This document shows, in pieces, positions 460-57,818 of a stretch of DNA of 57,818 nt. Position 1 is the stretch's first letter. Each line of letters starts with the position of its first letter. Origin of the DNA: a virus; the IMG/VR virus record IMGVR_UViG_3300032893_000051, positions 1 to 57,818 of that record; one strand, written 5' to 3'. Below the pieces are notes generated by a model. The model saw only the letters and a list, made by a program, of their open reading frames with translations, made no database searches and was not told the DNA's origin. Position numbers and translations under genes: made by a program.

Positions 460-2144
460 TCAGAGAACCCCTGCGATGCATAGCAATGAAAATTTGAAGA
501 TGTTGATTGCTGAACGAGCACGTGGATGTCGTCGTACAGCCCGGCGGCGGATAGCGTTGGTGCGCCGACCGAGCCCCAGTCGCACTTCGGTATCGACAGC
601 GTAGCGGAGCTGGCCACCTTCACCTTCACCACATATGCTCCTCCCGCCACCGCCCCGGAAAGTGTGAGCGTGCAAGCATCGGAGGCGGTCAGGTCGACCT
701 CGGCCGTGGCGGAGTTCAGGGAGTTAAAGTTCACCGTGCCTGACGTCGTGCAGGTCACTGCACTTCCAGGCCACGCAGGGGCCATGTTGTAAACGTTGGT
801 CCCGTCGTTGTAGTCCACCGGAGCAAAATAGAGTCCGGTAACCGGAATTGAAGAGGTGCCCCACTGAGCGGTGAATGCCGTGGAGCTGGTCGGGAACATG
901 TTGAACATGATCTCGGGGGTGGCCGAGCTCATCGGAGTCAGAGCGAACCAAATTCCAGTGGGAAGATTCCCAGAGCTCCAGTTCCCAGCTGCGTACCAGT
1001 CTAGGAACGCAGTGGATCCCGGATGCAAAATGCTGGTTCCGTCGTATCCCGATGCGGCTATTATTCCCAGATTGTCGAACTGCTGCGGATAGGCTGGACT
1101 AGCGAAGCTTCCCCTTGAGGCAGACAAGGCGATGTACGCGCCTCCGAACTGACCGTTTTGCTCGTTCGCGGCTTCGATGTTAAGTCCCACTACCGCAGTC
1201 GGACTGGAAGTGTCCGCTGCAATGTATAGGTTAGAGACCGGCACTCCGAAAATGCCTTTCTGCACCGCTAGCCCTGCGGCGATCTGATCCCCAAGGTTGA
1301 TTGTGGAGTTGACGTAGACGTTACCCGGTCCCTGAATGGAGGTGCCCGAGTTCGACGAGCCGATGTCCCCGGAGCTGTTCGTAGACCAAAGCAGATTCGC
1401 TCCGGACGCGCTCGAGAGAGTCACGGCTCCGGTAAAGGAAGGATTCGCCGTGGGGGCCTTGTTGTTGAAGGTCGTCCAATCGGCCGAACTCAAAAGACCC
1501 GGCTGTGATCCTGACGCCGTCTGAACGTTGACCGTGGTTCCGGATCCGACGACAGCCCCTGTTCCCCCTCCGATACTCACACCGGTAGTGGAGGTACTTA
1601 GGTTACCTAACGTTAGTGCGCTCTGCTTCGAGTTGAAAGTATTCCAGTCCGCCGAGGATAAATATCCGGCCTGAGATGCGCCGGCCTGCTTCACCTGAAT
1701 CGAGGTTCCTGATCCGATTACGGCGCCGGTCCCACCGGAAATAGTCAGAACTGAGCTGGTCGCCTCGGTTAGGTTTCCGGTAGTGATCGCCCCCTGTTTG
1801 TTATTGAACGTAGTCCAGTCCGCAGCGCTGAGAAGTCCTGGCTGAGATCCGGAGGCGGTTTGGATGTTTACCGCAGTTCCCGATCCTATTACCGCACCGG
1901 TGCCTCCGGTGACCGACACACCGGTTGTCCCGGAAGTGAGGTTCCCGAGCGTTAGAGCGGGCTCTTTATTATTGAAGGTGTTCCAATCCGTGGCGGACAG
2001 ATACCCGTTACTGGCGGTGGTCGCCAGGCCAATGGACATCACCCCATTCGACAGGTTTAGAGGGCTCTGGGCCGTGATCCTCTGGGTGTTCTGTGCGGCT
2101 ATGGCCAGCGCTGGAATCAGAATAGAAAGAAGAAATATCCTCAT
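456..2144 (-). CDS. Secreted tail-fibre-like repeat protein
   Basis: A 562-residue protein with an N-terminal signal peptide (MRIFLLSILIPALAIAA). Residues about 25-230 hold four repeats of roughly 47 residues, each ending in a variant of LSxxDWxxFNxK and containing GGTGAVIGSGT-type glycine turns; this repeat type is typical of trimeric phage fibre shafts and bacterial surface fibres. The C-terminal half is a non-repeated beta-rich region, probably the receptor-binding end. The start has an AGGAG site eight bases upstream. It lies between two other signal-peptide fibre proteins. Export rather than direct virion assembly is inferred from the leader. Confidence 0.75.
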   Translation of the reverse strand: MRIFLLSILIPALAIAAQNTQRITAQSPLNLSNGVMSIGLATTASNGYLSATDWNTFNNKEPALTLGNLTSGTTGVSVTGGTGAVIGSGTAVNIQTASGSQPGLLSAADWTTFNNKQGAITTGNLTEATSSVLTISGGTGAVIGSGTSIQVKQAGASQAGYLSSADWNTFNSKQSALTLGNLSTSTTGVSIGGGTGAVVGSGTTVNVQTASGSQPGLLSSADWTTFNNKAPTANPSFTGAVTLSSASGANLLWSTNSSGDIGSSNSGTSIQGPGNVYVNSTINLGDQIAAGLAVQKGIFGVPVSNLYIAADTSSPTAVVGLNIEAANEQNGQFGGAYIALSASRGSFASPAYPQQFDNLGIIAASGYDGTSILHPGSTAFLDWYAAGNWSSGNLPTGIWFALTPMSSATPEIMFNMFPTSSTAFTAQWGTSSIPVTGLYFAPVDYNDGTNVYNMAPAWPGSAVTCTTSGTVNFNSLNSATAEVDLTASDACTLTLSGAVAGGAYVVKVKVASSATLSIPKCDWGSVGAPTLSAAGLYDDIHVLVQQSTSSNFHCYASQGFSE

Positions 2145-2152
2145 TTTATCTC

Positions 2153-3166
2153 CTAGTGACTAGAGCTCCTCTGTCCTTTGCATTCGAAGGTAAAAGCAAT
2201 ATCGGCCTGTCCAGGAACAGAGGTGTTCCACATATCAAATTCAACTGAGGCCGTCGGGGTTCCGGTTACGAATACCGAGCAAATAGTTGAAAGGTTGTCC
2301 ACGGCGTTGCACGTGCACTGAGCCTGATCCTGGTAGCTCGTATTGAAGGTGATGACAAACTGCCCGGTCGACACACGCGTGCAGCCGTATCCCTCTCCCT
2401 GAAGTCCCGTGTCCGGAGACGTGTAGCACGTAGTTCCGCTCGAGGCTGCGTGGTTAACGCCACCTCTGATTATCTGCAATCCGCTGGTGGAGGGAGTCGC
2501 CGAAACCACCGCCGGAAAGCAGGAGTTGCTGGAGGGCAGGCACACCTCCAGGGTGTTGTTTGAGAAGTCCTGCAAATCCGTACCCGTGTTGTTGTATCCG
2601 ATCTTTAACGGAGTATTCAGGACTAGGTCTACGATTGAATCGTCGGTGTTCTTGAAAAGCGCCGGCCTAAGCGCAGAAGAGTCATCTCCGATGACTATTG
2701 CTCCGTGGGAATAAGAGCTATCGTTGCAGATCAGAGCGGCTCGGCCATTGTTGTTTACGGTGCCTAGCTCTATGCAGTTGCTCGGAGACTGTATGTAGGC
2801 ATCTCCAGAGGAGGTGCCCCACGTCGGAAAAGTCGCGCCAACCGATCCTAGTATCACTCCGGAGGCTCCGCTTATGACTATGTCGCCGGAGTCCGCGCCG
2901 GGGTGTTGGTTCACCAGAATGGAGTTAGCCGCGCAGGTAATGTTCGTGGTGCTGTTTCCCACCAGCACGCAGTTGGTAGTGAAGCTGGCTTGGCCAGTTC
3001 CACCGTTGGCGACGTTCAGCACTCCAGTCACCGCAGCTGACTGGGACACATCTATGGCGCCCCATCCCGGAAGGGATCCGGAGCTGGGCATCCGGTAGAC
3101 ATTGTACGCAACCCTGCCAAAAGCGATCGAAGGAAGAAGTATAAGAAGTAGGAATAAATTTTTCAT
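2153..3166 (-). CDS. Secreted fibre-like protein
   Basis: A 337-residue protein beginning with a clear signal peptide (MKNLFLLLILLPSIAFG). Residues about 50-85 carry NVANGGTGQASFTTN, a phrase common in phage tail-fibre proteins (GGTGxxS/T element). The rest is Ser/Thr/Gly-rich and beta-predicted, with paired cysteines near the end (CTCNAVDNLSTIC). The ATG overlaps the stop of the upstream adaptor-like gene as ATGA, so both are translated together. Its role as a host-recognition fibre is inferred from position and repeat style. Confidence 0.7.
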   Translation of the reverse strand: MKNLFLLLILLPSIAFGRVAYNVYRMPSSGSLPGWGAIDVSQSAAVTGVLNVANGGTGQASFTTNCVLVGNSTTNITCAANSILVNQHPGADSGDIVISGASGVILGSVGATFPTWGTSSGDAYIQSPSNCIELGTVNNNGRAALICNDSSYSHGAIVIGDDSSALRPALFKNTDDSIVDLVLNTPLKIGYNNTGTDLQDFSNNTLEVCLPSSNSCFPAVVSATPSTSGLQIIRGGVNHAASSGTTCYTSPDTGLQGEGYGCTRVSTGQFVITFNTSYQDQAQCTCNAVDNLSTICSVFVTGTPTASVEFDMWNTSVPGQADIAFTFECKGQRSSSH

Positions 3167-19377: not shown

Positions 19378-22188
19378 TTACGACCTGACACCAAGTCCCC
19401 CCACCGACACGCCCTGGTACTCCCCGTCCAACACTTTTCGCCACTCTTTCGGGTCCAGGATCTTGATCGCTATGACCCAGGAACCTTGCTTCACGGTTTG
19501 GGGTCCGTAGGGCCCCTCGTTCCACTCCAGGTCCTGCGGCACTATGTAGGATTCGACGGGCACCGCCTCTATTTCTTCCTCGTGGTTTTTCCCAACCATT
19601 CGGGAGCTTATCAGGTAGTTGTGCGCCGCTTCCTCGATATCCTCGGGGGTCATCCAATCGTCCTGTTCGTCGAGCTCCTCGGGGGCTAACACTACGCAGT
19701 AAATGATCTGCTTTTTTATGTCGGCCTTCTTGATCGGACAGATCTTCCGCACCCACTTCGTCAGCTCTGGGTATCGGTTGTAGATCGCGTTCTTTACGAT
19801 CTCCTCGTCGGTGGTTCCGGAGGATTGCCGAAGCGACTCCATGGCTTTTTCGAGGGTCTCCATCGGATAGGCCATTCGATCCGGCACAGCGTAGTTCTCG
19901 TTGCCGATGAGTTCAGCGGGTTTCGCATCCAGCATAGGCTGGGACTCCTGCGCTTCCTCTGAGAGAAACCGGTGGAAATCCCCCTGGAACTTCTCAAAGT
20001 CCGGCACCAGCTCCTCGGTCGACGGGTGCACGCCCTCGCCCTGTTCCTCGAGCAGAAATCGGATGAAGTTTTCTCCAAAGTTCGACAGCGCCTGGTCTAG
20101 ATCTCCGATCTCGTGCTTTTCTATTTCGCTGCCGGCCCCGGGCTGCTGTCCGGCGACTATCACTTTGTCATCGGAGTGCTCCTGCTGCCGAGAGACTAAA
20201 GAGCCCTGGCTCGGGTATCCGTGAACGCGATTACCCCGTCCGGAGCTCGTGGCGTCGCTCCAGGTGTAGCCGAGAGCGTCCATCGCCAGTAGTGCGTCTG
20301 CAGGGAGCATGTCATATTGGGCAATCCCGATTCTCGGCTCCGAATCGTTCGACGTGGAAGCATCGGGGACCGCCACTCCAGTGAACCGCTGGCGAAAGCT
20401 CGGCTGCCCCTCTATCTTCTGGACATCCTCGTTTGTTTCATGACCGGTGAGGACGAGCCGTGGGAACTCCTTCGTCCAGTCGGGGTAGTTGTAGATGTCG
20501 TTCGGGCCCTCATAGGTGAATTGCCCTCCTGGCATGAGCACGCGCTGAATCTCCGACAGTAGAGCCTTCTGGTCCTGTTTTTCCAGATCCTGTAGCCCAT
20601 CGCGGAGTCGCACATTTCGGACGCTCCTGTCTGGTAAAGGAATTCCGGTTGTAAGATCGTGAACCACGGTGCCGTAGTCGTAGGGGTAGACGTCAAATCC
20701 CACGTAGCCGGGCATCCGCGCCTGCCCGCTCATCAAATCTATATTCAGCCCCACCGGCCAGTTGGATGTGGATTCTTCTTCGTTTTCGAGAGTGTCCTTG
20801 TTAATTTCCGGGTTATGCTCGATCGCCAACGCATCGCTGGTGTCTACTGTTTCGATTCGCTTTTTCCGATAGTAGTCTGGGTCGTCCTCGAGGTGACTTA
20901 TGGCAAGCTCCTTCGCCTCCTCGCCAACGCTCGTCGTGTGCTCCATTTCCCAGTCGATTCCTGAGACGATTTGCTCCATGCCGTACAAATCCGACGCATC
21001 CTGGTTGTCGCCGGCCACGTAGTTCTTCAGACACTCGCCGTACTTTTCCGCCACGGAAAAAAGCCCCAGTCCCCCAAATTCCTTCAGCACTTCAGCTTCC
21101 AGATTGTTCACGCTCGGGGGCTCTACCTGAGAACTACGGCTCCGGTCAGTCGAGGTAGGCGGAGTCCCCTGCGGCTCGACCTTTCGCTGAAACGGCTGCT
21201 TTTTCTCGTCCTGTGGAGGGGAGGGAACGTGGACGTCCGAGCCCCCTGGCTGAGCTTTGGAGATCTCTGGAAAGTTCCTTCTGAGATGGTCCTTTAGGCC
21301 CGGGTGCGTTTCCATTATCGACATCGTCTCCTCCGGAGTAAAAACTCTCGCCGGCAGCTGCTTTTTCCCAGTCTTTATGGCTTTGTGCATGCGGTGGTGC
21401 CCGTCAATCAGTAGGTATCGAATCCCCTCCTGCGTGGGAATCGAGGCAATGAAAACGGGGTTTTTGGACTTCGATCCCATCGCCGCCTGCTCGTCGACGT
21501 GTATCTTGTCACTCCACGCGGGATCCACGGGGACCTTGGCGTTGTGCTTTTTGCCGGCAAGGTCTCGCGCCTTGTCGATGTCGAAAATCATCGACCCTAT
21601 GACGAACTTCTCCGCGTCCGAGCCGTCACGGACAGTCCCACCGAGGACGTCGGGCAGCGAGCGGTAGATGTTCTCTGGGGTGACGTCCGGGGCAACGCCC
21701 TCGACTGGCTCCGGATCGGATTTTCCGACTTCTCCTGTGGCTTCACCCGTATTCCTACCGACACGCACCGCACGGTCATCCCATAGCTCCTTCATGTGGT
21801 GATCCTTGACGTTGGTGACTTCCAGCCTGGGAAGCCCCTGCGCCTCGAGCCAGTCCTGGATTTTCTTTACGTTGCCTTTTTTCCCAGCGCGCGCGGTGAA
21901 AACCTTTACGTTCTCGCCCTTCGACAGCCAGTCCTTCACCCGGTTGACCATGGGTCCAACGGCTTGGCCGATGTGGTCGTCGCCTTTGTACCCATCGTAA
22001 TGGGCTAGCGTTCCGTCCAGATCGACTCCGATCCAGGAGTCCATTTTCTTCTTCTTGGTTTCTACCTTCTCTGGAAGGTCCATCCCGCGGCTCGCGCGGT
22101 CGTATTCCCGAACGGTCTTTTTGGGGATATCCCCGCGGGCCTCGGCTGCGTGAAAGAATCGACGCTGTGCTTCCGAAACGTACGGCAT
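19378..22188 (-). CDS. 936-residue multidomain head protein: HAD, ParB-like, DUF5661, methyltransferase-like, XkdF
   Basis: I chose the ATG at 22188 (MPYVSEAQRRFFHAAEARGD, a widespread phage N-terminal motif) because it has a GGAGG site and forms TAATG with the upstream stop. Domains by residue: HAD-like phosphatase at about 49-145 (VDLDGTL, FTARAG, ELWDDRAV); ParB/sulfiredoxin-like at about 190-295 (LLIDGHHRMHKA); DUF5661-like at about 365-445 (ELAISHLEDDPDYY); SAM-methyltransferase-like at about 475-600 (LNIDLMSG, GFDVYPY, EIQRVLMPGGQF); XkdF-type prohead-protease domain at about 810-936 (PEELDEQDDWMTPEDIEEAA). The C-terminal domain fits the position before the scaffold gene; the joined enzyme domains are most unusual and may be carried into the capsid or released by processing. 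Confidence 0.75.
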   Translation of the reverse strand: MPYVSEAQRRFFHAAEARGDIPKKTVREYDRASRGMDLPEKVETKKKKMDSWIGVDLDGTLAHYDGYKGDDHIGQAVGPMVNRVKDWLSKGENVKVFTARAGKKGNVKKIQDWLEAQGLPRLEVTNVKDHHMKELWDDRAVRVGRNTGEATGEVGKSDPEPVEGVAPDVTPENIYRSLPDVLGGTVRDGSDAEKFVIGSMIFDIDKARDLAGKKHNAKVPVDPAWSDKIHVDEQAAMGSKSKNPVFIASIPTQEGIRYLLIDGHHRMHKAIKTGKKQLPARVFTPEETMSIMETHPGLKDHLRRNFPEISKAQPGGSDVHVPSPPQDEKKQPFQRKVEPQGTPPTSTDRSRSSQVEPPSVNNLEAEVLKEFGGLGLFSVAEKYGECLKNYVAGDNQDASDLYGMEQIVSGIDWEMEHTTSVGEEAKELAISHLEDDPDYYRKKRIETVDTSDALAIEHNPEINKDTLENEEESTSNWPVGLNIDLMSGQARMPGYVGFDVYPYDYGTVVHDLTTGIPLPDRSVRNVRLRDGLQDLEKQDQKALLSEIQRVLMPGGQFTYEGPNDIYNYPDWTKEFPRLVLTGHETNEDVQKIEGQPSFRQRFTGVAVPDASTSNDSEPRIGIAQYDMLPADALLAMDALGYTWSDATSSGRGNRVHGYPSQGSLVSRQQEHSDDKVIVAGQQPGAGSEIEKHEIGDLDQALSNFGENFIRFLLEEQGEGVHPSTEELVPDFEKFQGDFHRFLSEEAQESQPMLDAKPAELIGNENYAVPDRMAYPMETLEKAMESLRQSSGTTDEEIVKNAIYNRYPELTKWVRKICPIKKADIKKQIIYCVVLAPEELDEQDDWMTPEDIEEAAHNYLISSRMVGKNHEEEIEAVPVESYIVPQDLEWNEGPYGPQTVKQGSWVIAIKILDPKEWRKVLDGEYQGVSVGGLGVRS

Positions 22189-23066
22189 TAAGCCTCCGAA
22201 ATCTCGATGGTCAGTATGCACTCGCAGTTAGGGTGAAGCGGAGGGCCATCCACTCCGGCCGAGAACTGGTCGTGCAGTCCGACGGATTCACCATCAAGCT
22301 CCGTGCACTCTGGGCACGGGTTGCCGTCCACCTGCCAGACCTTCTGAGAGCCTTGCCCAATCAGCCCCTCGGCTGCGGCAGCCTGCCAAACTAATTGCTG
22401 CCCCTGATTCTGAACGGCCTGCGTCTCGGTCTTCGCTATCATCTTAGCACGGTAGTCGAGCAGCCTGTCATGGTACTGGTCCACAAGCTTATCTATCCTA
22501 GTTCTGGGCAGCCCCTGCGACTCTAGGGTCGATTGGTAGTTGATCAGCGCTGTGGCCTGCTGTGGGTAGAGTCCGATCATGGGCTTGATCAGCCGAGCCA
22601 TCGTGGGCACTGGAATCGACTCACGGAGCTGTTTCTCCACAGCCTGCTGGATGACTTTCCGGGCATCGGTGCTGATGTCGGTGACGAGCCTTCCCGTTCT
22701 GCGGTCAACGTAGTCCTGTATTCTCCGGTTCTTTAGGTCAAATCTCAAATTCTTATCTGCCTGTGCCGGCAGCGGGGCTAGATCGGAAAACTCTCCCATG
22801 GACCTAGCCATATGCGCGCGGTATTGGTCCAACTCGTCGGGCAGCTCGCTCCAGGGAACGAGTGAGTAAATTGAGTTGTAGTTTCCCGACAACCACGCGT
22901 CCGACAAAGTTTTCTCGCTGATCTTTTTCTTGAAGGACTTTATCCCAGACAAAAAGTCCACGCGCGCGGCCTGGGACATCGTATTCGTCAGCGCCCGCAC
23001 CCGAGCGGTAGTCCTACGGTACGTTTTTCTGGGAGCCGCCTTCTGAACTGTGGAGAAGATGATCAC
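22188..23066 (-). CDS. Phage head morphogenesis protein (Mu gpF-like)
   Basis: A 292-residue protein whose C-terminus has the family signature: MIAKTETQAVQNQGQQLVWQ, then CPECTELDGE and LHPNCECILTIEI, the paired cysteines of the Mu F-like minor head domain. The N-terminal part is helical. It follows the portal and Cys-rich genes and is expected to be a minor head protein next to the portal. Coupled upstream by ATGA. Confidence 0.85.
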   Translation of the reverse strand: MIIFSTVQKAAPRKTYRRTTARVRALTNTMSQAARVDFLSGIKSFKKKISEKTLSDAWLSGNYNSIYSLVPWSELPDELDQYRAHMARSMGEFSDLAPLPAQADKNLRFDLKNRRIQDYVDRRTGRLVTDISTDARKVIQQAVEKQLRESIPVPTMARLIKPMIGLYPQQATALINYQSTLESQGLPRTRIDKLVDQYHDRLLDYRAKMIAKTETQAVQNQGQQLVWQAAAAEGLIGQGSQKVWQVDGNPCPECTELDGESVGLHDQFSAGVDGPPLHPNCECILTIEISEA

Positions 23067-25264: not shown

Positions 25265-25828
25265 CTAGTTCGAAATTGAAATCGCCCCAATTAAAGTGAC
25301 GGCAGGCGGCACCCCTATCTGGGTGAAGTCCCACTGCGAGTTCAGCGCAGTGGCCGCGTCGTTTATGGCCATGACTGTCGACGTATATGTTGCTGAGTAT
25401 GTTATCACATTCTGCACCCAAGTCAGGAGCGGTTGGATGTAGGCCACTCTGTTAGTAAGGCTATTCTGCTGGGCCAGGTAGTAAATAATAAAAAGTCGGA
25501 ACTGAGTTTCCAGAGAGTAAAACTCCTGGACGTACTGCTCTAGCGCTAGGCTGAAGTTCGTCAGGTTCTCTTTCTTGGCGTCGGCGAGCGACGGAACCGG
25601 AAGCCCGAAGGTGTCCGATCCGGCATTATACGCATCCCCGATGTTGAAGCTTTGTCCTCCCACTGTCGTGTCCACGCAATAGTCGTACTGCGGAGCGTAA
25701 ACACTCTGAACGTCGGTTAGACTGGCCATGATGCTTTGGACCACAAGTCCATTTAAAACCAGCGCCCACAGATCGACAGCCGTTGGATCGCTGTTCTGGT
25801 CCACTATGGTTCCCTTAGGTACTGCCAT
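25265..25828 (-). CDS. Virion-associated protein of unknown function
   Basis: A 187-residue protein. The ATG at 25828 forms TGATG with the stop of the upstream gene and has a GGAG site; longer frames only add an Arg/Trp-rich shadow of the glycine-rich gene. The sequence is mostly helical (NLTNFSLALEQYVQEFYSLE) with a beta start. No family recognised. It is the only one of this group without signal peptide besides the next small gene. Confidence 0.55.
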   Translation of the reverse strand: MAVPKGTIVDQNSDPTAVDLWALVLNGLVVQSIMASLTDVQSVYAPQYDYCVDTTVGGQSFNIGDAYNAGSDTFGLPVPSLADAKKENLTNFSLALEQYVQEFYSLETQFRLFIIYYLAQQNSLTNRVAYIQPLLTWVQNVITYSATYTSTVMAINDAATALNSQWDFTQIGVPPAVTLIGAISISN

Positions 25829-26745
25829 CACTCCACCCACTTTATTAGAATTCTGCCTCCAGAGCCCTGCGCCCCGTTGGCTCCGTTGCCTCCTGTAGTC
25901 CCAGTCGTTGCCAAAGCCCCTCCACCACCGCCTCCGCCACCGCCGCCTCCGCCACATCCAGCATTTACCGTTGGTGTCGATCCAGCGTTTCCGCCTCCGT
26001 TTCCAGCAGTGCCTCCGAGTGCTCCTGGACCACCGTTCTGACAGTTCACGTCTCCGCCGGTGGGTGCGCCTCCACCTCCACCACCACCACCCGATGTTCC
26101 TGTGGGACTGTCGCCTCCAGCGCCTCCGCTTCCAGCCGTTCCGAAAGGGGATATTCCAGCTGGACTCATCCCATTAATTCCGTCGTTGTGCCTAGTTCCT
26201 CCAGTGCCACCGTCTCCGCCAAATACGCTGAATGTTCCTCCGCCGCACAGTGGCGTGCAGCTATTGTTTGTTCCGCCAGCTCCTGCCGTGGCAAGTGCCC
26301 CTCCGTTTCCCCCGTCTCCACCGTTCGCTCCAGGAAAGGAGAGTAATGCGTCAAAAGTAGATGTGCCTCCGTTGCCGCCATTGACGGCGTTAGCGCCAGT
26401 ACCAGACGGGGCTGTTCCACCTCCTCCACCAGTTCCTGCAGATCCTCCCCCGCCTATGGTGATTACATACGTAGTCCCTGGCGTTACCGATATGGTGTAC
26501 GTCCCAGTCACGGCAGATCCACCCGCGGATCCGCCACCACCGCCCGCTCCCTGGTTCGTAGTACTGCCGCCGGCTCCTCCGCCTCCTCCTCCACCACCTC
26601 CCGATCCGCCTCTGCCCTCAACCGTCACCGTGGTCACTCCTGCCGGAGCGGTCCAGTTCCCAGAGGCTACGAAGACTTGAGTGACAACCCTTGGCTCGCC
26701 TGCCAGGGCCGGTAGGGTAGCCAGTAAAATAAAAAGTCTCAGCAT
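25828..26745 (-). CDS. Secreted glycine-rich fibre-like protein
   Basis: A 305-residue protein with a signal peptide (MLRLFILLATLPALAG) followed by VFVASGNWTAPAGVTTVTVE, a domain opening common in phage tail fibres, and then about 220 residues of Gly/Ala/Ser/Thr sequence with long glycine runs, like the polyglycine-II bundles of phage adhesin tips. The ATG at 26745 forms TGATG with the upstream stop. A glycine-rich adhesin with a leader suggests export to the host surface. Confidence 0.7.
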   Translation of the reverse strand: MLRLFILLATLPALAGEPRVVTQVFVASGNWTAPAGVTTVTVEGRGGSGGGGGGGGGAGGSTTNQGAGGGGGSAGGSAVTGTYTISVTPGTTYVITIGGGGSAGTGGGGGTAPSGTGANAVNGGNGGTSTFDALLSFPGANGGDGGNGGALATAGAGGTNNSCTPLCGGGTFSVFGGDGGTGGTRHNDGINGMSPAGISPFGTAGSGGAGGDSPTGTSGGGGGGGGAPTGGDVNCQNGGPGALGGTAGNGGGNAGSTPTVNAGCGGGGGGGGGGGGALATTGTTGGNGANGAQGSGGRILIKWVE

Positions 26746-27191
26746 CAGTCCATCCACCAGTTAGTTCCGTCCGAGGACACCCAAGTAACGCTGCCGTACG
26801 GAGTCGTGTACTTTTTGCTCGCGGCCAAACCCTCCAGCGTCTCAGAAGCGTGCTGCACGAAAGTGATGTTGGGCGCTCCGGATATGTCCTTCACGATGAA
26901 GGTTCTGCCAGTAGTTGCCGCGGGCATGGTGATATTTATTGCGGACGTCGTGTTTACGAAAATAGCGTAGTCCGTGGTCGTGGTGTCGACAGTGAGGCTT
27001 CCGGTGATCGTTCTGGTTGTGACACTCCAACCGCCGTTCGCCTGGTTCACACCGGTTCCGCCGCTCACGCCGATGATCGCGGGCACGAAGATGTACGCTG
27101 CTGGGCCGGGATTCCAAATGATGGGCGGGTTAGGCGGAGTGAGTCCCGCGAGCGCCACGCTGGAGAGCAATGAGAGAAGAAGCATCCTCAT
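26745..27191 (-). CDS. Secreted fibre-like protein, small
   Basis: A 148-residue protein with a signal peptide (MRMLLLSLLSSVALAG) and a beta domain (NITMPAATTGRTFIVKDISG, then YTTPYGSVTWVSSDGTNWW) of the kind that ends many phage fibre proteins. The ATG overlaps the upstream stop as ATGA. Probably part of the same exported fibre complex as its neighbours. Confidence 0.65.
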   Translation of the reverse strand: MRMLLLSLLSSVALAGLTPPNPPIIWNPGPAAYIFVPAIIGVSGGTGVNQANGGWSVTTRTITGSLTVDTTTTDYAIFVNTTSAINITMPAATTGRTFIVKDISGAPNITFVQHASETLEGLAASKKYTTPYGSVTWVSSDGTNWWMD

Positions 27192-28705
27192 TTGTAAAAC
27201 GTCATGTTGACGCTCCCGGTGGTGATGTTCGCGGTCTTCGCCTGGAACCCTAGGCAGTTGCCGGACGGGATCATGAAGTCCTTACCGCCGCCTCCGGCGC
27301 TGACGATGATCGCGTTGGATGAAGTGGACAGGGCTCCGCACGTGGCGGCGTAGGCAAGGTAATAGTCCGAACCGGAGGAATCGAAGATGTCTATCTCATT
27401 TATCGCGGCGCTGGTGGAGCTGATGATCGTGGTGAACGAGCTCGTCGACAGATTCGCCGAGGAATAGCTTTGAGTGAAAGTCGATAGAACTCCTCTCCCG
27501 CTTCCGGCGTTAGCCGTTACAGCTCCAGAAATCGGCTGCGTCACCCCGCTTCCATCCACCCGCAGGGCGCCAGCGGTCGTCAGGGACAGCGGATTCGTCT
27601 TCGCAGTGACGTACGTGGGCGCGGACGTAGTGACTGCGCCCTGAACAATCGGCCCCGACTGCCCTGAGGTCGTGCTCCCCTGCGCTAGTAGAATCCCGTT
27701 CACGCTCGTGTCCAGCGCCAGCGCCGACGTGTTGAGGTTCGTTCCAGCATTTGCCGTGACCGTCCATGATCCCCCCTGATTGGCAGTCACGGTCCCGGAG
27801 ACAACCCACGGGGAAGTCGACTGCGTCACTCCTATTGTCGATGGAAAATTTGAGACAGCTACGGAGTCGGTGCCGCTATTCAGGGTCCACGTGCGGCCCG
27901 TCGTCCATGCTCCCGATTGAACCGCAGCCACTGAATCCGTCGCATTGCTCAGAGTCCACGTCCTGCCCGTCGTCCACGAACCCCCCTGGAATGAGGTAAT
28001 TTGGTCCGATGTAGTCAGGGCACGGATTTGCGTCGGGTCCACATAGCTCGACCCATTGGAGATCTGCACCGCTAGTGGGTTCGTCGAGGATGGGGCCGAT
28101 CCCAAGACTTGGGTAATGTTTATCGATTGCGTGGCAGGAAAGTTGGATACCAAAGCAGAGACAGAATCCGAGCCACTTGAGAGAGTCCATGTTCTCCCCG
28201 TGCTTCCCGAGATTGGTTGAGTCGTCGTTCCGGTCGGGTCGATCCGGAGCGGATTCGAAGGAGTACCTAGTAATACTGTACCATCGGTCAACTCAACGGG
28301 CCATCCGTTGGCGAGCGTGTTCGGCGTTCCCTGATTGGCTGTGAAGGCCCCAGGGAAGGACGACACAGCCACCAGCAGGTTTCCGGAGCCGTCCAGACTC
28401 AGGCCGGTCAGAGTGCCAGATTGATTCCCTGCGATGTAGGTTCCGCTGTTCGGCACGGCGCTTCCGGTTGGTCCAACGCTGGCGTTGCTGCCACTACCAC
28501 CACCGGTCGTAATGAGCTCGCCGCTCGCGTCCACGGCCACGGGGAGGAAGGTGTCTCCGTACAGCCCCATCATCGGGTAGCCAAGGCTCTGGAGTAATTT
28601 CCCATCCCCGGGATCGATGCCTATCTGCCCCTGGTCCCCGCGGTAGACAGTGTAGGACCCAAAACACAGAGCCGGGAAAAGTAACGCGAGAATGATTCGC
28701 TTCAT
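27188..28705 (-). CDS. Secreted fibre-like repeat protein
   Basis: A 505-residue protein beginning MKRIILALLFPALCFG, a clear signal peptide. The middle has three copies of GRTWTLxxxxDSVxA and several NQGGSWTV-like strands, a repeat style of beta-structured shaft proteins; the C-terminal 120 residues are non-repetitive (NEIDIFDSSGSDYYLAYAA). The ATG at 28705 overlaps the terminase stop as ATGA. Its place between terminase and portal is unusual for a fibre gene. Confidence 0.7.
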   Translation of the reverse strand: MKRIILALLFPALCFGSYTVYRGDQGQIGIDPGDGKLLQSLGYPMMGLYGDTFLPVAVDASGELITTGGGSGSNASVGPTGSAVPNSGTYIAGNQSGTLTGLSLDGSGNLLVAVSSFPGAFTANQGTPNTLANGWPVELTDGTVLLGTPSNPLRIDPTGTTTQPISGSTGRTWTLSSGSDSVSALVSNFPATQSINITQVLGSAPSSTNPLAVQISNGSSYVDPTQIRALTTSDQITSFQGGSWTTGRTWTLSNATDSVAAVQSGAWTTGRTWTLNSGTDSVAVSNFPSTIGVTQSTSPWVVSGTVTANQGGSWTVTANAGTNLNTSALALDTSVNGILLAQGSTTSGQSGPIVQGAVTTSAPTYVTAKTNPLSLTTAGALRVDGSGVTQPISGAVTANAGSGRGVLSTFTQSYSSANLSTSSFTTIISSTSAAINEIDIFDSSGSDYYLAYAATCGALSTSSNAIIVSAGGGGKDFMIPSGNCLGFQAKTANITTGSVNMTFYK

Positions 28706-30075
28706 CGTATCCACTTACTCGCTCCAGTGAGGCTGACGGGCTTCCAGTTAGTGGGCATTCCGGTTGACAGCTCGGAGATTGCCTGGGTCGATGCGTCCAC
28801 CTGATCGTCGTTCTTCCCGTTTGGAAATTCTGCCCATTCCTGTACGTAGTCTCCTATCCATGGTGCCAGGGATGGATCCGGAATCCAAACGTTTCCTGAC
28901 TCTATCTGCGGGGATACAGCCTGGGCGCGGAGTTCCTTTGACCCTTTGGGGCGTATGGGGACAATGCCGGCGATTTCGCGTTTGAGGGTGTCGATCAGGG
29001 CCGCGCCGTTTGCCGCTTCCTCCACGCACTTCTTACCGGCGTTCGGGTATCTGGCAGACAAAGTACGAAAGGCGCCTATGGTGTCCGTGAAAGAAAGACG
29101 CGCGCGTATCTGGTCGATCAGGTACTTATCGGCGCCAACCTTCCCCCACACCTGCCCCACGACGTAGTCGGTCGATGCGCCTTCCTTGAAGGTAAGGTCC
29201 CACGACGAAATCATCAGGTCCATTTGCGGGAGAGTCTTGTAGTACTTCCACCAGTGCCGCTTGACGATATTCCCTTCCTGCGGGCTCGGGCGTTGCTGGT
29301 AGAGAGCCTCGAAGTCCTGGCTTCCGATCGTCTTCTTGGTTTGCAGAAGAGTGTCGATGTCGAATCGCTCTGGCCACAGAGCCTTTCCCTCTTCGTCGAT
29401 CGCGGGCATCGAGAGGATTTCCCAGTCGTTCCCTTGCGTGTCGATCAAGTGCGCCGGCAGATCCTTGTCGGACCAGCGAGTTTGAATCAGCACGATCTTT
29501 CCGCCTGGCGCGAGTCGCGTGTAGAGCACAGAGCCGAACCAGTCTTTTATTTCCTTCAGAATCGGCTCGGAGTTCGCTTCCTGACGGTTCTTATGTATAT
29601 CGTCGATAATAATCAGATTCGCTCCGCGGGACGTAAGCGGACCTTTCGCTCCGACTGCGTAGTACGCGCCGCCTTGCTTGGTGTTGAATCGGTGAGCGGC
29701 GAGCGACTCGGGATTTAATTCTAGCTCTGGGAAGATCGCTTTGTAGTCCGGCGTGGTCATCAGCGCGCGGGTTTTCCGTCCAAAATCGGATGCTACTTCC
29801 TGCGAATACGTCGTGGATATCACTTCGTGGCTCGGGTGCCGGCCCATGTACCACGAGGGAAGTAGGGCATTCACCATTCTGGACTTCCCGTGCCGAGGAG
29901 GCGCGTAGATCATCAGCCGCATAATATCCCCGCGTTCTAGCGCCTCGATTCTGCGGACCATGCGGACGATATGGTTGGGAGTCTGGTAGTCGTCGTCCAT
30001 AACAGCAGCGTAGGAAAGTAAATCGTTCCGCGCCCATTGCTGTACGGCTATTTGTATTTCACTACGATGCTGCAT
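28702..30075 (-). CDS. terL: Terminase large subunit
   Basis: A 457-residue protein with an ATPase domain (Walker A YAPPRHGKSRM at about 56-66; Walker B LIIIDDIHK) and a C-terminal RNase-H-like nuclease (MISSWDLTFKEGASTDYVVG, CVEEAANGAALIDTLKREI, KNDDQVDASTQAISEL). It packages DNA through the portal. It follows the small subunit, separated only by a small zinc-ribbon gene with which it overlaps by 28 bases. Confidence 0.92.
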   Translation of the reverse strand: MQHRSEIQIAVQQWARNDLLSYAAVMDDDYQTPNHIVRMVRRIEALERGDIMRLMIYAPPRHGKSRMVNALLPSWYMGRHPSHEVISTTYSQEVASDFGRKTRALMTTPDYKAIFPELELNPESLAAHRFNTKQGGAYYAVGAKGPLTSRGANLIIIDDIHKNRQEANSEPILKEIKDWFGSVLYTRLAPGGKIVLIQTRWSDKDLPAHLIDTQGNDWEILSMPAIDEEGKALWPERFDIDTLLQTKKTIGSQDFEALYQQRPSPQEGNIVKRHWWKYYKTLPQMDLMISSWDLTFKEGASTDYVVGQVWGKVGADKYLIDQIRARLSFTDTIGAFRTLSARYPNAGKKCVEEAANGAALIDTLKREIAGIVPIRPKGSKELRAQAVSPQIESGNVWIPDPSLAPWIGDYVQEWAEFPNGKNDDQVDASTQAISELSTGMPTNWKPVSLTGASKWIR

Positions 30076-30737: not shown

Positions 30738-31163
30738 ATGACCATCTACCAGGTGGAAGAAGGCCTCTACCGCGGCGGCCCGCCAACCGTCGAATCCTAC
30801 AGACTACTGTCCCAAATGAGCACCATACTGAATCTCCGATCCTGGCCCCCAGCGGTTCGGAAGGAGTACGATTTGTTCCGCCGGCCCCGCGTTCGCATTC
30901 TCACTGACCCCTGGATGCCGTTCATGCCGCCGTCCCATCGCTGCACGGACGCAGCAATCGCCCTTATTGAGAACAAGGATCTTCGGCCCATTTATGTGCA
31001 CTGCCTGAATGGTCTGGACCGCACCGGCTACATCATCGCGGCCTACAGGGTTAAGAAGTGCGGCTGGTCGATTCGCGAGGCGGTCACAGAAATGCGCAGC
31101 GTCGGATTCTCCTGGGCCTATGGATTCTGGATTTGGCAGCTTCAGGACTATTGTCTGAGATAA
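30738..31163 (+). CDS. Tyrosine/dual-specificity phosphatase-like protein
   Basis: A 141-residue protein with the PTP loop HCLNGLDRTG at residues 88-97, that is C(x)5R with Cys89 and Arg95, and a likely general acid Asp57 in DPWMPF. Its size fits the small DSP/PTP fold (start YQVEEGLYRGGPP is typical of atypical DSPs). It would remove phosphate from protein or lipid/RNA substrates in the host cell. AAGGAGG lies five bases before the ATG. First plus-strand gene beside the late operon. Confidence 0.85.
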   Translation: MTIYQVEEGLYRGGPPTVESYRLLSQMSTILNLRSWPPAVRKEYDLFRRPRVRILTDPWMPFMPPSHRCTDAAIALIENKDLRPIYVHCLNGLDRTGYIIAAYRVKKCGWSIREAVTEMRSVGFSWAYGFWIWQLQDYCLR

Positions 31164-31205
31164 AAACCCGGCGCGCGTTTGTCCTCGCCAGGCAACGGCG
31201 CCGGG
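31162..31205 (-). terminator. Rho-independent terminator of the protease operon
   Basis: On the minus strand an 8-bp perfect stem (CCCGGCGC at 31198-31205 side with its complement at 31167-31174) is followed by TTTTT at 31162-31166. It lies 27 bases after the stop of the papain-like gene and would stop that transcript before it runs antisense into the phosphatase gene. Confidence 0.65.
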
Positions 31206-31231
31206 CCTATCTCTGGAGGCAGCCAGAGAAT

Positions 31232-32158
31232 TCAGTCAACCATGAGTCCGAAGAATTCGAGGATTACAAATCCCGCGACTAGGCAGACCATCACTAGGAA
31301 GATGTAGAACGGCCAACTGTGGTCATCTCCGGTTGCGGAGATTTCTTCCTTGTCCACGTTGAAAATCAAAGCATCCGACGCAACACTGTTGCATTTCACA
31401 CCATTTTTGTCGGTGGCCTTGGTCCAGATGTAGCCTTTTTCTCCCCACTCCGTGCCCCAGGAGTTTTTCACGTGGAACAATCCCACGCCGTTCGGCAGGT
31501 TGCCCTCTGCGTTAAACTTGCATTGTCCCTCACAATCATATCCGGTCAGTAAAACCATGTGGTTCACCTGACCTGGAGTGCAGGCCTTGTACACTCCGCC
31601 CTGATACAGCTCCCAGTGCATGTCCGCATAAACGTCGACAGACACGGGGTGGTGCAGCACGCCGACGGAGTAGGCGATATCGCGGAAGCTGGGGCCGTTC
31701 ATTTCTCCCAGCATCGAATAACTCTCTGCGGAGGCGACGGGTTTGAGATGCCGGCAGGTCGAGGTCTGTCCAGTGTACGGCCACTGATTGTACGTCGGAG
31801 GTCCTTTCGGATTTATGAACCACTCCGCCGCGTCGAAATCCCCTCCACTGCATCCGTCCGCAGTTTCGTAGTCGCAGTCGATCAGATAGTTGAACGACAG
31901 CCGCCCCGGATCCCGTCCGGAGTTTAACAGCGTGTCTCGGAGGTTTCCGGTTAGTGAGAAGTCGTAGCAGTCCCCGCATTCCCCCTGGTTCTCCACGGGC
32001 GAGGCTTTCAGGTCGTACTTATTCGGGATGACGGAGGTTTCCGCGAGAAACGAAATGTGCGGCATCGCCTCGAGCATCTTGTGGGTTTTTCGCTTCAGGC
32101 CTTTGGGATGCAGCGCATAGGCGTTCGTCGCAATCAGAAGGATGAGAATCAGTCGCAT
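31232..32158 (-). CDS. Membrane-anchored papain-like cysteine protease (C1A)
   Basis: A 308-residue protein with a signal peptide (MRLILILLIATNAYA), almost no propeptide, and all C1A landmarks: Gln58 in NQGECGDCYDFS, catalytic Cys64, GCSGGDFDAAEWF, His200 in VNHMVLLTGYD and Asn232 in KNSWGTEWGEKGY. Residues 282-305 form a C-terminal membrane segment (FYIFLVMVCLVAGFVILEFF), so the enzyme would sit on the periplasmic side of the inner membrane. It forms a two-gene unit with a 47-residue protein and has its own terminator. Papain-like enzymes are rare in phages; the target could be host envelope proteins, competing phage, or the phage's own secreted fibres. Confidence 0.85.
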   Translation of the reverse strand: MRLILILLIATNAYALHPKGLKRKTHKMLEAMPHISFLAETSVIPNKYDLKASPVENQGECGDCYDFSLTGNLRDTLLNSGRDPGRLSFNYLIDCDYETADGCSGGDFDAAEWFINPKGPPTYNQWPYTGQTSTCRHLKPVASAESYSMLGEMNGPSFRDIAYSVGVLHHPVSVDVYADMHWELYQGGVYKACTPGQVNHMVLLTGYDCEGQCKFNAEGNLPNGVGLFHVKNSWGTEWGEKGYIWTKATDKNGVKCNSVASDALIFNVDKEEISATGDDHSWPFYIFLVMVCLVAGFVILEFFGLMVD

Positions 32159-32167
32159 AGGAACTCC

Positions 32168-32311
32168 CTATTTCTTGAATGCCTTTACGTGGTCGATGAA
32201 GTCCTGGGCCGTCTGTGCGGGACTCGAGCTGCCGGTGATCAGTTTGATGATGTCCGGCAAAACCTTCCCCAGCTCCGCCAAAATGAACATAAGCCATTGT
32301 TCCCATGTCAT
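32168..32311 (-). CDS. 47-residue small protein upstream of papain-like protease
   Basis: A frame of 47 codons from ATG 32311 behind GGGGAGG. The product (MTWEQWLMFILAELGKVLPD, then IIKLITGSSSPAQTAQDFID) has an amphipathic helix and a helical C-terminus. It ends nine bases before the protease start, so it is co-translated. It might chaperone or inhibit the protease, or be a holin-like peptide; neither is shown. Confidence 0.6.
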   Translation of the reverse strand: MTWEQWLMFILAELGKVLPDIIKLITGSSSPAQTAQDFIDHVKAFKK

Positions 32312-32340: not shown

Positions 32341-32556
32341 ATGGGTGACCTCGACTTTAAGCAGTTCGTGGAGTGGGCGTTCATGGCGATCCTTTCTGGA
32401 GCGATAGGACTCAGCGCCAGATCTCTAGATCGAATTACCAAAAGTGTGGAGCATCTGAACGAGAAAATGGCCGTGATTCTTGAACGCATCTCCTGGCACC
32501 AGAAGGAGATCGAGGACCACTCAAAGCGCATCTCCAAACTCGAATCTGACGACTAG
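32341..32556 (+). CDS. Holin-like/XhlA-like membrane and coiled-coil protein
   Basis: A 71-residue protein with one membrane segment (about 11-28, WAFMAILSGAIGLSARSL) followed by a coiled coil (HLNEKMAVILERISWHQKEI). This layout resembles XhlA-type and other small phage lysis proteins. It opens the plus-strand lysis segment that includes the M15 endolysin. The start lies 30 bases from the divergent minus-strand gene. Confidence 0.55.
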   Translation: MGDLDFKQFVEWAFMAILSGAIGLSARSLDRITKSVEHLNEKMAVILERISWHQKEIEDHSKRISKLESDD

Positions 32557-32611: not shown

Positions 32612-32884
32612 ATGCCAACGGAATCAGTGAACGTTTTGGTGAACCAGGACACGTACGCGGTGGGTTTGGCTTTGGCGAAGTTCGCCGCCGACGTGAAGGC
32701 GGCATTCAAGGCCGGCGGATCCGTCGCGGAAGTTACGGCCATTGCCACGGCGGCGGTGACGGATCTCCTTCCGCAAGTCCAGAACCTTTCTCAACTGGTG
32801 CCTGAAGCCCAGGCGAACCTTTCGGCCGAGGTGAATACGGCCGCATTAGTGGGTCAGGCGATTTACATGGCTCTGGCGTCGTAG
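32612..32884 (+). CDS. Small helical protein of unknown function
   Basis: A 90-residue Ala/Val-rich helical protein (NVLVNQDTYAVGLALAKFAA) behind AGGAGG. No signal peptide and no clear membrane segment. I do not recognise a family. It lies between the holin-like gene and the glycosyltransferase. Confidence 0.6.
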   Translation: MPTESVNVLVNQDTYAVGLALAKFAADVKAAFKAGGSVAEVTAIATAAVTDLLPQVQNLSQLVPEAQANLSAEVNTAALVGQAIYMALAS

Positions 32885-34158: not shown

Positions 34159-34566
34159 ATGGTCAAGACGTACAAGAAGGGCTCCGGAACCCCGCTGTCT
34201 GAGCACTTCACTACTGCTAGCTTCGACTGCCACTGCACGCGAGCGAGCTGCGCAGAAACACTGGTGGACGAGAGCCTTCCGCCGGCTTTGGAACTTCTGT
34301 GGAAAATCGCAGGACCTTTCGAAGTTAATTCTGGATACCGATGCATGGAGCACAATGCGGAGGTTGGTGGAAAACAGGACTCCCAGCACATGTTCGGGAA
34401 AGCCGCCGACTGCCAATCTCTGAAGGGCTACTCCGGCCCGGCAATGGCCAGGTACGCGGAGCAGGTGCCTAGGTTTTCGGCCGGGGGAGTGGGGGTGTAC
34501 AAGGATTTCTGCCATGTTGACACTAGGGGTTATAGAGCCAGGTGGTCCGCCCCTCTAAGCTGCTGA
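34159..34566 (+). CDS. Endolysin, M15 peptidase (D-Ala-D-Ala carboxypeptidase-like)
   Basis: A 135-residue protein with the Peptidase_M15_3 signature: SGYRCMEHNAEVGGKQDSQH (His77), GKAADC (Asp84) and FCHVDTR (His119), the three zinc ligands. It has no signal peptide, so it needs a holin to reach the cell wall. It cuts peptidoglycan stem peptides at lysis. The location among small membrane and exported proteins supports a lysis cassette. Confidence 0.85.
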   Translation: MVKTYKKGSGTPLSEHFTTASFDCHCTRASCAETLVDESLPPALELLWKIAGPFEVNSGYRCMEHNAEVGGKQDSQHMFGKAADCQSLKGYSGPAMARYAEQVPRFSAGGVGVYKDFCHVDTRGYRARWSAPLSC

Positions 34567-34623: not shown

Positions 34624-35184
34624 ATGAAGTACGTTGCTTGGATTTTATTACTGACCGGCTGCGGGAAGTGGCTGCCCGTGGCCAATGTTTCCTCCCCCTC
34701 GCCGACTCCCTCGGCGGAGTTGGTATCGCCCAGCGAGTCCAGAGTCGTCCCGAAGTCGACGCCTACCCCGACTCCGAAACCTACAGCGACGCCGACGCCA
34801 AATCCCTGGCAGGACTGTCAGACCTACGGGACCCAGCAGAGCTACACGCCGAACAACCGGGACTTCCAAGTACAGATCATGCCCCTGAAGTGCAACTTTC
34901 CGCCGACAAACATTGGCTCGTCCTACTCAAAGATTTCCTCTGACGAGTACGACGTGGAGGTAGAGTCCTTACTCAGCGGTGTTCCGACCCAGTGTCAAAA
35001 TATATTGAACGTCGCTCCGGAGGGCGCGTCGGATCTGCTCTGCAAGCTCAATTTTTCTGGAGCCAGCGCAGACGTCGGGAACCTGGTTACCGTCTCATAC
35101 ACCATCTCTGCCTCGTATTCCCTGGCCGGCCAAACCACGCAAATATCTTCCTCGAGCTGGACGACGCTAACGCTTTCCTACTAG
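34624..35184 (+). CDS. Outer-membrane-type lipoprotein with Pro/Thr linker
   Basis: A 186-residue protein with a lipoprotein signal (LLLTG then Cys13) and a Pro/Thr/Ser linker (about 22-60, repeated TPTPTPKPT type), followed by a beta domain with cysteines at about 66, 90, 123 and 142. A lipobox points to a Gram-negative envelope. It could be an outer-membrane spanin or a superinfection-exclusion lipoprotein; the linker length and folded domain favour a surface function. No partner inner spanin was recognised. Confidence 0.7.
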   Translation: MKYVAWILLLTGCGKWLPVANVSSPSPTPSAELVSPSESRVVPKSTPTPTPKPTATPTPNPWQDCQTYGTQQSYTPNNRDFQVQIMPLKCNFPPTNIGSSYSKISSDEYDVEVESLLSGVPTQCQNILNVAPEGASDLLCKLNFSGASADVGNLVTVSYTISASYSLAGQTTQISSSSWTTLTLSY

Positions 35185-35219: not shown

Positions 35220-35975
35220 ATGAGGGTGCTAATCCTAATTCTAGTCCTCTTCTCGCTTTCGCTTCGTGCGGACGACACCTCCGATCCCATTGGCGACGAT
35301 TACTCGAAACCCACTCAGGACATCCATTTCCACATTCTCCCCCGGAAATACGCCACGGAAATCGAGTCGGAGATCCGTCAGGCTCCGAACCAGCAGCTGC
35401 GCACGGCCCAGTACACGGATCAAGCTCTCTCTCAGCTGATGAAAGTTGCCGTCGCCCGGCTGCGTGCGGAGAACTTCAAGGACGAAGCCTACCAAATCGA
35501 GAGCATCTACCGGATCCAGTACGATGGTTTTCTGACCAAGATGGTTGCCGGGAACATCGCTGCGGGTAGGGACATTGGCGACCACAAACCACTGATCGCC
35601 TGGCTCGCAAACGTAATGGCTACTCTGGAGCGAACGTTGGGATTTGGCACCTGCAAGGCCTTGCATCTCACGGACATAGACGTTTTTAATTACGCGATTC
35701 CGATCGTTTTCCACCCCTGTACCTTCCCGATGGACGCGGTGACCGTCGATCGGCAAACGGAGTACCGCGAGCATTTCGCGGATTCTCCCAGGTACGGCGG
35801 TGGATTGATTCCGGTTGTGGTTTTCTGGGTTGCCGACATCGTGTGTTCCGCCGCCACGTTCGGGGGCGGATGGTTCTTCATCTGCACTCCCATCTCGGAT
35901 CTTGCCGAGTGGGCTATGCAAAAGTGGATCGCACCTAAGCTTTCAGACGACATATTCACGAAATCCTGCGGTTGA
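35220..35975 (+). CDS. Exported protein of unknown function
   Basis: A 251-residue protein with a signal peptide (MRVLILILVLFSLSLRA), a helical middle (TDQALSQLMKVAVARLRAEN), several cysteines (CKALHLTD, HPCTFPMD, VCSAATFGGGWFFICTP) and a hydrophobic segment at about 198-222. It should be periplasmic or membrane-associated. No family is recognised. It follows the lipoprotein gene by 35 bases with an AGGAGG site, so the two may work together in the envelope. Confidence 0.7.
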   Translation: MRVLILILVLFSLSLRADDTSDPIGDDYSKPTQDIHFHILPRKYATEIESEIRQAPNQQLRTAQYTDQALSQLMKVAVARLRAENFKDEAYQIESIYRIQYDGFLTKMVAGNIAAGRDIGDHKPLIAWLANVMATLERTLGFGTCKALHLTDIDVFNYAIPIVFHPCTFPMDAVTVDRQTEYREHFADSPRYGGGLIPVVVFWVADIVCSAATFGGGWFFICTPISDLAEWAMQKWIAPKLSDDIFTKSCG

Positions 35976-57328: not shown

Positions 57329-57818
57329 CTATGGCAGCCCGTAGAAGCTGCTAGTCCAGTTGTCCATCGCCGTCAATTCCATGGCCGAGAGCTTTTTATT
57401 CCAGACGCAGAAGAACGCCATGTCGAATGAGTTTCCGGTGTCTCCATTGTCTCCGTCGTATCCAATCGCGGTGAGCGTGTCCCCATGTCCTTGGTTCGCA
57501 TTGGTTGGGGATTGCAGGACTTTGTCGTAGTACAGCGCATAGTCAGAGAGCGACGTGCCAAGCCCGTCGAAAGTGAACGCGTATCGGTGGAAACTGACCG
57601 TCCCAGGCGTCACTGAGGACACAAATGGGTTTGCCGGAAACTGCGTGAGGTACCAGCCGTTCGTCGCGTTCACTCCGAAAACGGCGTTCGCCGATCCGCT
57701 TAGATCCGTGAAGGTCGCGAAAAAACGATTGTTCACGGTGTTGTCGTTCAGCTTAACGACCGTGTACATGGAAACCGGCTGCGTAGAGGTAAAGAAATGC
57801 GTCGGATTACCAGCAGTG
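57329..57818 (-). CDS. Secreted LamG-like fibre/adhesin protein, C-terminal part
   Basis: This holds the last 120 codons (57329-57691) of the protein that starts at 459, plus the terminal repeat. The sequence (FHRYAFTFDGLGTSLSDYAL, then SFDMAFFCVWNKKLSAMELT) is the typical end of a LamG-like sandwich, with the closing strand and short helix. The gene ends eight bases before the start of the tandem Ig-like gene. Confidence 0.75.
   Translation of the reverse strand, partial: TAGNPTHFFTSTQPVSMYTVVKLNDNTVNNRFFATFTDLSGSANAVFGVNATNGWYLTQFPANPFVSSVTPGTVSFHRYAFTFDGLGTSLSDYALYYDKVLQSPTNANQGHGDTLTAIGYDGDNGDTGNSFDMAFFCVWNKKLSAMELTAMDNWTSSFYGLP
57692..57818. repeat. Terminal direct repeat, right copy (assembly overlap)
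   Basis: Identical to bases 1-127. It shows that the contig is closed and that the true genome length is 57,691 nt. Confidence 0.95.

Follow-up and report, generated by a model that had tools for sequence, protein, structure and literature searches.

A recurrent papain-like protease, predicted to be exported, in the lysis region of uncultured phages

What would a papain-like protease with an export signal do for a phage? The question is posed by a 57,818-base virus record (IMG/VR IMGVR_UViG_3300032893_000051; hereafter the window, meaning the whole stretch of DNA analysed), in which a gene with an ATG start at 31232–32158 on the minus strand encodes a 308-amino-acid C1A (papain-like) protease, as identified by Pfam, a structure model and viral relatives. 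We propose, with a probability of roughly 45%, that the phage exports it to act on the envelope during lysis, perhaps taking on the job of a spanin; its activity, substrate, timing and role in lysis are what we infer from the features described below. The novelty lies in where it is found: papain-like proteases that are predicted to be exported, and in some cases anchored in the membrane, recur in the lysis region of uncultured phages, together with an uncharacterized partner. No description of a phage lysis protease of this kind was found in the open-access literature searched.

A C1A protease with predicted export and membrane anchor

The protease open reading frame (ORF) matched Pfam Peptidase_C1 (PF00112) with an expectation value (E) of 1.7e-35 and 123.6 bits, against a cut-off of 20.7, and papain and cathepsin sequences in the PDB with values of up to 6e-22; at the level of sequence, a Peptidase_C1 match of this strength is beyond chance. 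Alignments placed Gln58 (codon at 31985–31987), the catalytic Cys64 (31967–31969), His200 (31559–31561) and Asn232 (31463–31465; all on the minus strand) in C1A order, in columns shared, without exception or nearly so, with cathepsin L and ficin. One departure is the cathepsin L1 construct, whose PDB entry carries an inactivating Gly in place of the catalytic Cys. Cys61/Cys103 and Cys95/Cys135 occupy the positions of two papain disulphides, again in columns conserved with cathepsin L and ficin, and both the catalytic residues and the disulphide cysteines were invariant or nearly so in an alignment of 28 viral relatives. The C1A landmarks claimed in an earlier note on this DNA are thus all present in the Pfam match and the alignments.

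The structure prediction suggested in that note gave the same picture. An AlphaFold2 model made from an alignment of 28 family members (mean predicted local distance difference test (pLDDT) score, 88.3; predicted template modelling score, 0.82) seats the catalytic residues in a papain fold, with the catalytic site retained. Its best solved neighbours were papain-type proteases and cathepsins (Foldseek E = 2.4e-19); it aligned with pro-papain 3tnx at a VIA Z of 28.6 (root-mean-square deviation (rmsd) 2.8, 243 residues aligned) and with mature papain 1ppn at a Z of 27.1 (rmsd 1.5 over 201 residues). Judged by sequence and model, the protein has the testable features of peptidase family C1A, and proteolytic activity is predicted.

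The N terminus of the protease, MRLILILLIATNAYA/LHPKG (the slash marks the likely cleavage site), resembles a cleavable signal peptide. Sequence and a hydrophobic-core heuristic place this peptide at residues 1–15 (32114–32158, minus strand), with likely cleavage after AYA. About 28 residues lie between this site and the mature-like domain, which aligns from model residue 43; the earlier note had seen almost no propeptide here, and the stretch is better described as a short pro-region (residues 16–43; 32030–32113, minus strand), in which Gly20 is invariant in 28 relatives. At the other end, beyond a flexible linker with a pLDDT below 50, residues 286–304 (31247–31303, minus strand) form a putative membrane helix, with a hydrophobicity of 2.65 and an AlphaFold helix at 281–306. 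Both the signal peptide and the C-terminal membrane helix had been read from the sequence before, and both readings held. We therefore have a predicted exported type I membrane protein with a cleavable signal peptide and one C-terminal membrane helix; this combination would place the protein N-out, C-in, with the enzyme in the periplasm.

Recurrent proximity to endolysin genes

In the window, an M15 endolysin gene (34159–34566, plus strand; Peptidase_M15_3, E = 1.9e-15; phrog_894 endolysin, E = 3.8e-25) lies 2.0 kb from the protease. Relatives of the protease on other IMG/VR viral contigs (loci labelled L plus a number) show the same closeness. Of the 24 records with a detected endolysin, 17 have it no more than 3 kb from the protease, where 5.7 were expected from record length (p = 5e-7); once one closely related amidase lineage had been collapsed, the count was 12 of 19 (4.1 expected, p = 8e-5). 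A caveat is that the late genes of phages tend to cluster anyway. The searches covered 36 records for Amidase_2 and 50 for the other endolysin families, some of these records being fragments. Five endolysin families mapped near proteases: Amidase_2, M15_3, M15_4, GH24 and DUF5675. The endolysins of G012, G019, G036, G040 and G041 are 56 to 600 bp from the protease, and in a sixth lineage (L016, L025, L026, L029, L046 and L048) the amidase gene ends 11–45 bp before the protease gene. As the endolysin families differ, the link between protease and endolysin arose or persisted in several backgrounds. The closeness of most detected endolysins to the protease suggests a role in lysis or at the envelope, which was not among the proposals of the earlier note.

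Small membrane proteins are part of the same neighbourhood. Divergent from the protease unit, and starting 30 bp from the start of the 47-amino-acid ORF described below, is a gene for a 71-amino-acid XhlA-like protein with a membrane helix and a coiled coil (32341–32556, plus strand), whose family adjoins C1A genes in L018, L041, L057, L071, L083, L084, L093 and L103. It is followed by a gene for a 90-amino-acid helical protein (32612–32884, plus strand), which we assign to a lysis-region family because it weakly resembles (E = 0.004) a family that accompanies C1A genes in many loci. A third small hydrophobic family occurs near nine relatives of the protease. L057 mirrors the neighbourhood of the window, with a 71-amino-acid protein, a small helical protein, the C1A protease and a 322/349-amino-acid protein. 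The protease thus clusters with endolysin and small membrane genes, as a lysis cassette gene does.

A secreted helical protein encoded at 35220–35975 (plus strand) belongs to a family associated with C1A proteases. In the first set of 44 loci, 14 had relatives of it near the protease, near-copies among them. A separate pattern scan for this partner family hit 12 contigs. A C1A protease is also present on 10 of these, the remaining two being a partly covered contig and a fragment of 14 kb. The partner start overlaps the protease stop by 4 bp in L038, L039 and L043. A model of the helical partner (pLDDT 72) had no PDB match, although at that pLDDT a missing match says little. PADLOC defence models matched neither the protease nor the helical partner, nor the 47-amino-acid protein and the phosphatase described below.

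Absence of a canonical spanin pair

A lipobox scan of all frames of the window yielded one credible lipoprotein ORF, for a Pro-rich protein of 186 amino acids (34624–35184, plus strand). The closed genome has no i-spanin-like (type II) gene less than 1 kb from it, and no o-spanin candidate less than 1 kb from the 71-amino-acid protein. By published criteria, a canonical spanin pair is missing from this genome. The protease, which lacks a lipobox, falls outside the spanin definition (an i-spanin of the inner membrane with a lipoprotein o-spanin of the outer membrane, or a single lipoprotein with a C-terminal transmembrane domain); it may work like a spanin, but it is not one. A survey of spanins found that about one in eight of the phages examined (~13%) lacks identifiable spanins, described the way in which such phages disrupt the outer membrane as an open question and named type I proteins with a C-terminal transmembrane domain as candidates that had not been considered (PMC6139136).

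A phage protease family

A single-sequence scan of IMG/VR gave no matches, whereas two profile scans recovered relatives, and after removal of near-copies we counted 54 distinct viral C1A proteases, that of the window included. An N terminus resembling a signal peptide or a lipoprotein signal was present in 51 of the 54, compared with 85 of 377 (22.5%) other ORFs of at least 200 amino acids from these loci, searched with similar leniency; as start codons were chosen to favour a signal, the control weighs more than the absolute count. The three relatives with no visible signal peptide (L022, L052 and L061) suggest that a cytoplasmic variant of the family may exist. The window protease groups with L012, L013, L014, L057, L060 and L061 (Shimodaira–Hasegawa-like approximate likelihood ratio test support, 100). 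C-terminal membrane helices were seen in the window, L060, L061 and L041, with L022 just over the threshold. We considered the C-terminal anchor as a family-defining trait and rejected it; it occurs in four tree rows, needs three changes and is clade-specific at best.

Searches of PHROGs and NCBIfam gave no real match for the viral C1A proteases, and 50,697 phage records and a scan of genome contigs yielded only remote C1 proteins, the latter bacterial or archaeal. A protease of this type in a phage had been called very unusual; C1A proteases are rare in cultured phages, but with 54 distinct members in IMG/VR this one is no isolated case. At their C termini, many relatives have Pro-rich and Ig/PKD-type domains of the kind usual in surface proteins.

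Several loci hold other enzymes alongside or within the protease. L024 (9983–12967) encodes an exported 994-amino-acid fusion that combines the C1A protease with a GDSL lipase domain and a GH5 cellulase domain. Trypsin-like S1 proteases adjoin the C1A protease in L013 (7987–8862) and L019 (8942–9799), and an exported HExxH protein with no Pfam match follows the C1A gene by 55–62 bp in L025 (5346–6176), L026 (6337–7158), L029 (11027–11833) and L048 (11063–11863). A thioredoxin-like lipoprotein recurs beside the protease in L020 (7405–7878), L049 (5692–6174; with a Pfam Thioredoxin match), L082 (7421–7894) and L096 (2452–2958), and might help in disulphide formation.

The transcription unit and its genome

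The protease has its own transcription unit, which ends in an intrinsic terminator (31162–31208, minus strand). A hairpin at about 31164–31208 is followed by a T-run at 31162–31166, present in the minus-strand direction only; the fold has a minimum free energy of −29.3 kcal/mol and a z-score of −4.2, equalled by no shuffle, and of −4.9 with more flank. A simple terminator scan missed the hairpin, probably owing to its bulges, and folding recovered it. The stem and T-run noted earlier were thereby confirmed, as was the direction of the unit: it is on the minus strand, flanked by plus-strand genes, and separates the terminase side from the plus-strand lysis region. A standard promoter scan of the window gave matches no more often than chance. 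Convergent on the unit is a gene for a dual-specificity/tyrosine phosphatase (30738–31163, plus strand; Pfam PTP-NADK, E = 1.8e-10), the stop codon of which falls inside the A/T run of the terminator.

Upstream in the same operon, a 47-amino-acid protein with a hydrophobic/amphipathic N terminus is encoded at 32168–32311 (minus strand). Its ribosome-binding site is good (GGGGAGGATGAGCT-ATG), and the protease ATG, with GGGAG upstream, comes 9 nt after its stop. The 47-amino-acid protein had no significant homologue, and none was detectable in any relative of the protease; its similarity to the small hydrophobic family near nine relatives reached only E = 1.9. We therefore do not claim it as a conserved partner: the pairing with the protease described in the earlier note stands as adjacency in one operon, and the relatives give no support for a conserved unit.

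The ends of the record share a direct overlap of 127 bases (1–127 and 57692–57818, identical), the usual sign of a closed genome. The overlap probably arose in the assembly of a circular or circularly permuted genome and is less likely to be a packaged repeat. Genes for terminase, portal, major head protein, tail sheath, tape measure and baseplate identify the closed genome as that of a myovirus; terminase and capsid searches found no close relative. Elsewhere in the window, a 947-amino-acid fusion (19378–22221, minus strand) carries a Peptidase_S78_2 (XkdF-type) head protease at its end and a weak methyltransferase-like middle.

A proposed role at lysis and its alternatives

In the order of events that we favour, the host, which we take to be Gram-negative, would export the phage C1A cysteine endopeptidase through its Sec machinery; the protease would lose its signal peptide and short pro-region, fold with its disulphides in the periplasm and be kept on the inner membrane by its C-terminal helix (N-out, C-in). 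At lysis, beside the endolysin and the small membrane proteins, it would cut envelope proteins, for example those linking the outer membrane with peptidoglycan, thereby completing the opening of the outer envelope, which is the spanins' job in other phages. The exported hydrolases that accompany the protease in relatives (trypsin-like in L013 and L019; HExxH in L025, L026, L029 and L048) fit a protein-digesting role. A bolder version, in which membrane-anchored exported proteases replace spanins in spanin-less phages by cutting envelope proteins and, with a dedicated helical secreted partner, make up a new kind of lysis protein, we regard as possible but doubtful.

Several observations weigh against a lysis function. 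In the window, the protease is in a unit of its own on the opposite strand from the lysis genes, which argues against simple co-transcription with them. In the family, too, it is often opposite the small lysis-type genes: relative to the XhlA-like gene, the protease is on the same strand in three cases and on the opposite strand in six, and relative to the other small family the counts are seven and seven. Endolysins lie more than 3 kb away in 7 of the 24 records, and many records yielded none. Lysis regions also gather accessory genes; the 71-amino-acid protein and the 186-amino-acid lipoprotein, 2 kb apart, could be an unusual spanin; and the lipase and cellulase domains fused to the L024 protease point to extracellular matter instead of lysis.

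Some of these observations suit an accessory exported protease, a moron-like cargo gene that alters the surface of the infected cell, for instance by removing a receptor and so excluding other phages, or that digests extracellular matter, and that sits in the lysis region because cargo genes gather there. The separate unit with its own terminator, directed against its neighbours, the mixed orientation relative to lysis genes, the L024 fusion and the Pro-rich and Ig/PKD-type ends of many relatives all fit such cargo. We nonetheless judge this rival, though a serious one, rather unlikely, as closeness to endolysins of five families recurs above chance and a benefit to a lysogen is hard to invoke: a search for a tyrosine integrase in the window found none, and integrases were present in only 5 of 46 records, some of them fragments, which makes lysogenic conversion unlikely for most of these phages.

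A second serious rival, less probable still, is that the protease processes exported proteins of the phage itself, trimming or releasing fibre-like proteins or the secreted helical partner. This idea, which for fibres goes back to the earlier note, gains some weight from five fibre-like proteins with Sec-type signal peptides in the window (456–2144, 2153–3166, 25828–26745, 26745–27191 and 27188–28714, all on the minus strand); such peptides are odd for virion proteins. A signal-bearing homologue of one of them is encoded in L061 (71–3175), a member of the same protease clade, and among fibre ORFs that share its repeat motif, a signal peptide was present on 2 of the 5 from protease loci but on 1 of 85 from protease-less phages (p = 0.007, Fisher test), although these cases are few and the numbers tiny. 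The recurrence of the partner family with the protease, including the 4-bp overlaps, agrees with such processing too. Most protease loci, however, have no such fibre within the DNA covered, virion proteins are normally cytoplasmic and no cleavage site is known. We give little credence to a lysis regulator, an anchored protease that switches a holin, antiholin or endolysin on or off by cutting it: the membrane anchor and the nearby small membrane proteins are compatible with it, but endolysins of five families offer no apparent common target. The rarity of C1A proteases in cultured phages could even suggest a misassembly or a host gene in the contig. This is almost certainly wrong, given a contig that closes on itself through its terminal overlap, a protease gene with a composition like that of neighbouring genes (GC content 0.549; 0.70 at third codon positions) and relatives whose neighbours, on further phage contigs, include terminases, portals and endolysins.

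An envelope protease acting at lysis remains our preferred reading. A recurrent exported protease beside the endolysin is a testable candidate for a proteolytic route through the outer membrane in spanin-less phages, and it adds a phage-encoded exported protease family, unnamed in PHROGs and NCBIfam, with a conserved uncharacterized partner.

Comparison with known systems

The window protease shares with papain/cathepsin L-type peptidases (MEROPS C1A, PF00112) the fold, the Gln-Cys-His-Asn site, two conserved disulphide positions, a signal peptide and a putative prosegment. It differs from them in a pro-region of about 28 residues, compared with roughly 100, in its C-terminal membrane helix and in being phage-borne, and its clade has an insert with a CxxxC motif before the catalytic Asn. 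Papain-type domains are also found on the genomes of Prevotella Lak phages, on gut phage fragments and in the BFVD entry 'Peptidase_C1 [uncultured Caudovirales phage]', but their similarity to the window protease is remote, at roughly 22–34% identity over part of the domain (tblastn); the gut C1 proteins (L006–L008) form a separate clade with long N-terminal extensions. The cathepsins of baculoviruses and giant viruses have the same fold (BFVD matches) but serve viruses of eukaryotic hosts, and no common viral descent with the phage family is implied. In baculoviruses, a cathepsin contributes to breakdown of the host as infection ends.

As proposed for the protease, disruptin-type disruptors take a non-spanin route through the outer membrane, but they are small cationic peptides and not proteases. 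Together with spanins, disruptins have been named as outer-membrane lysis proteins (PMC9239132). With the spanins themselves (Rz/Rz1 and u-spanins; PMC6139136), the protease has in common the periplasm as its proposed workplace, a place in the lysis region and a membrane tether. Spanins, however, are non-enzymes that bridge both membranes, whereas the window protease is a predicted enzyme, tethered by its C terminus, for which no lipoprotein partner was found.
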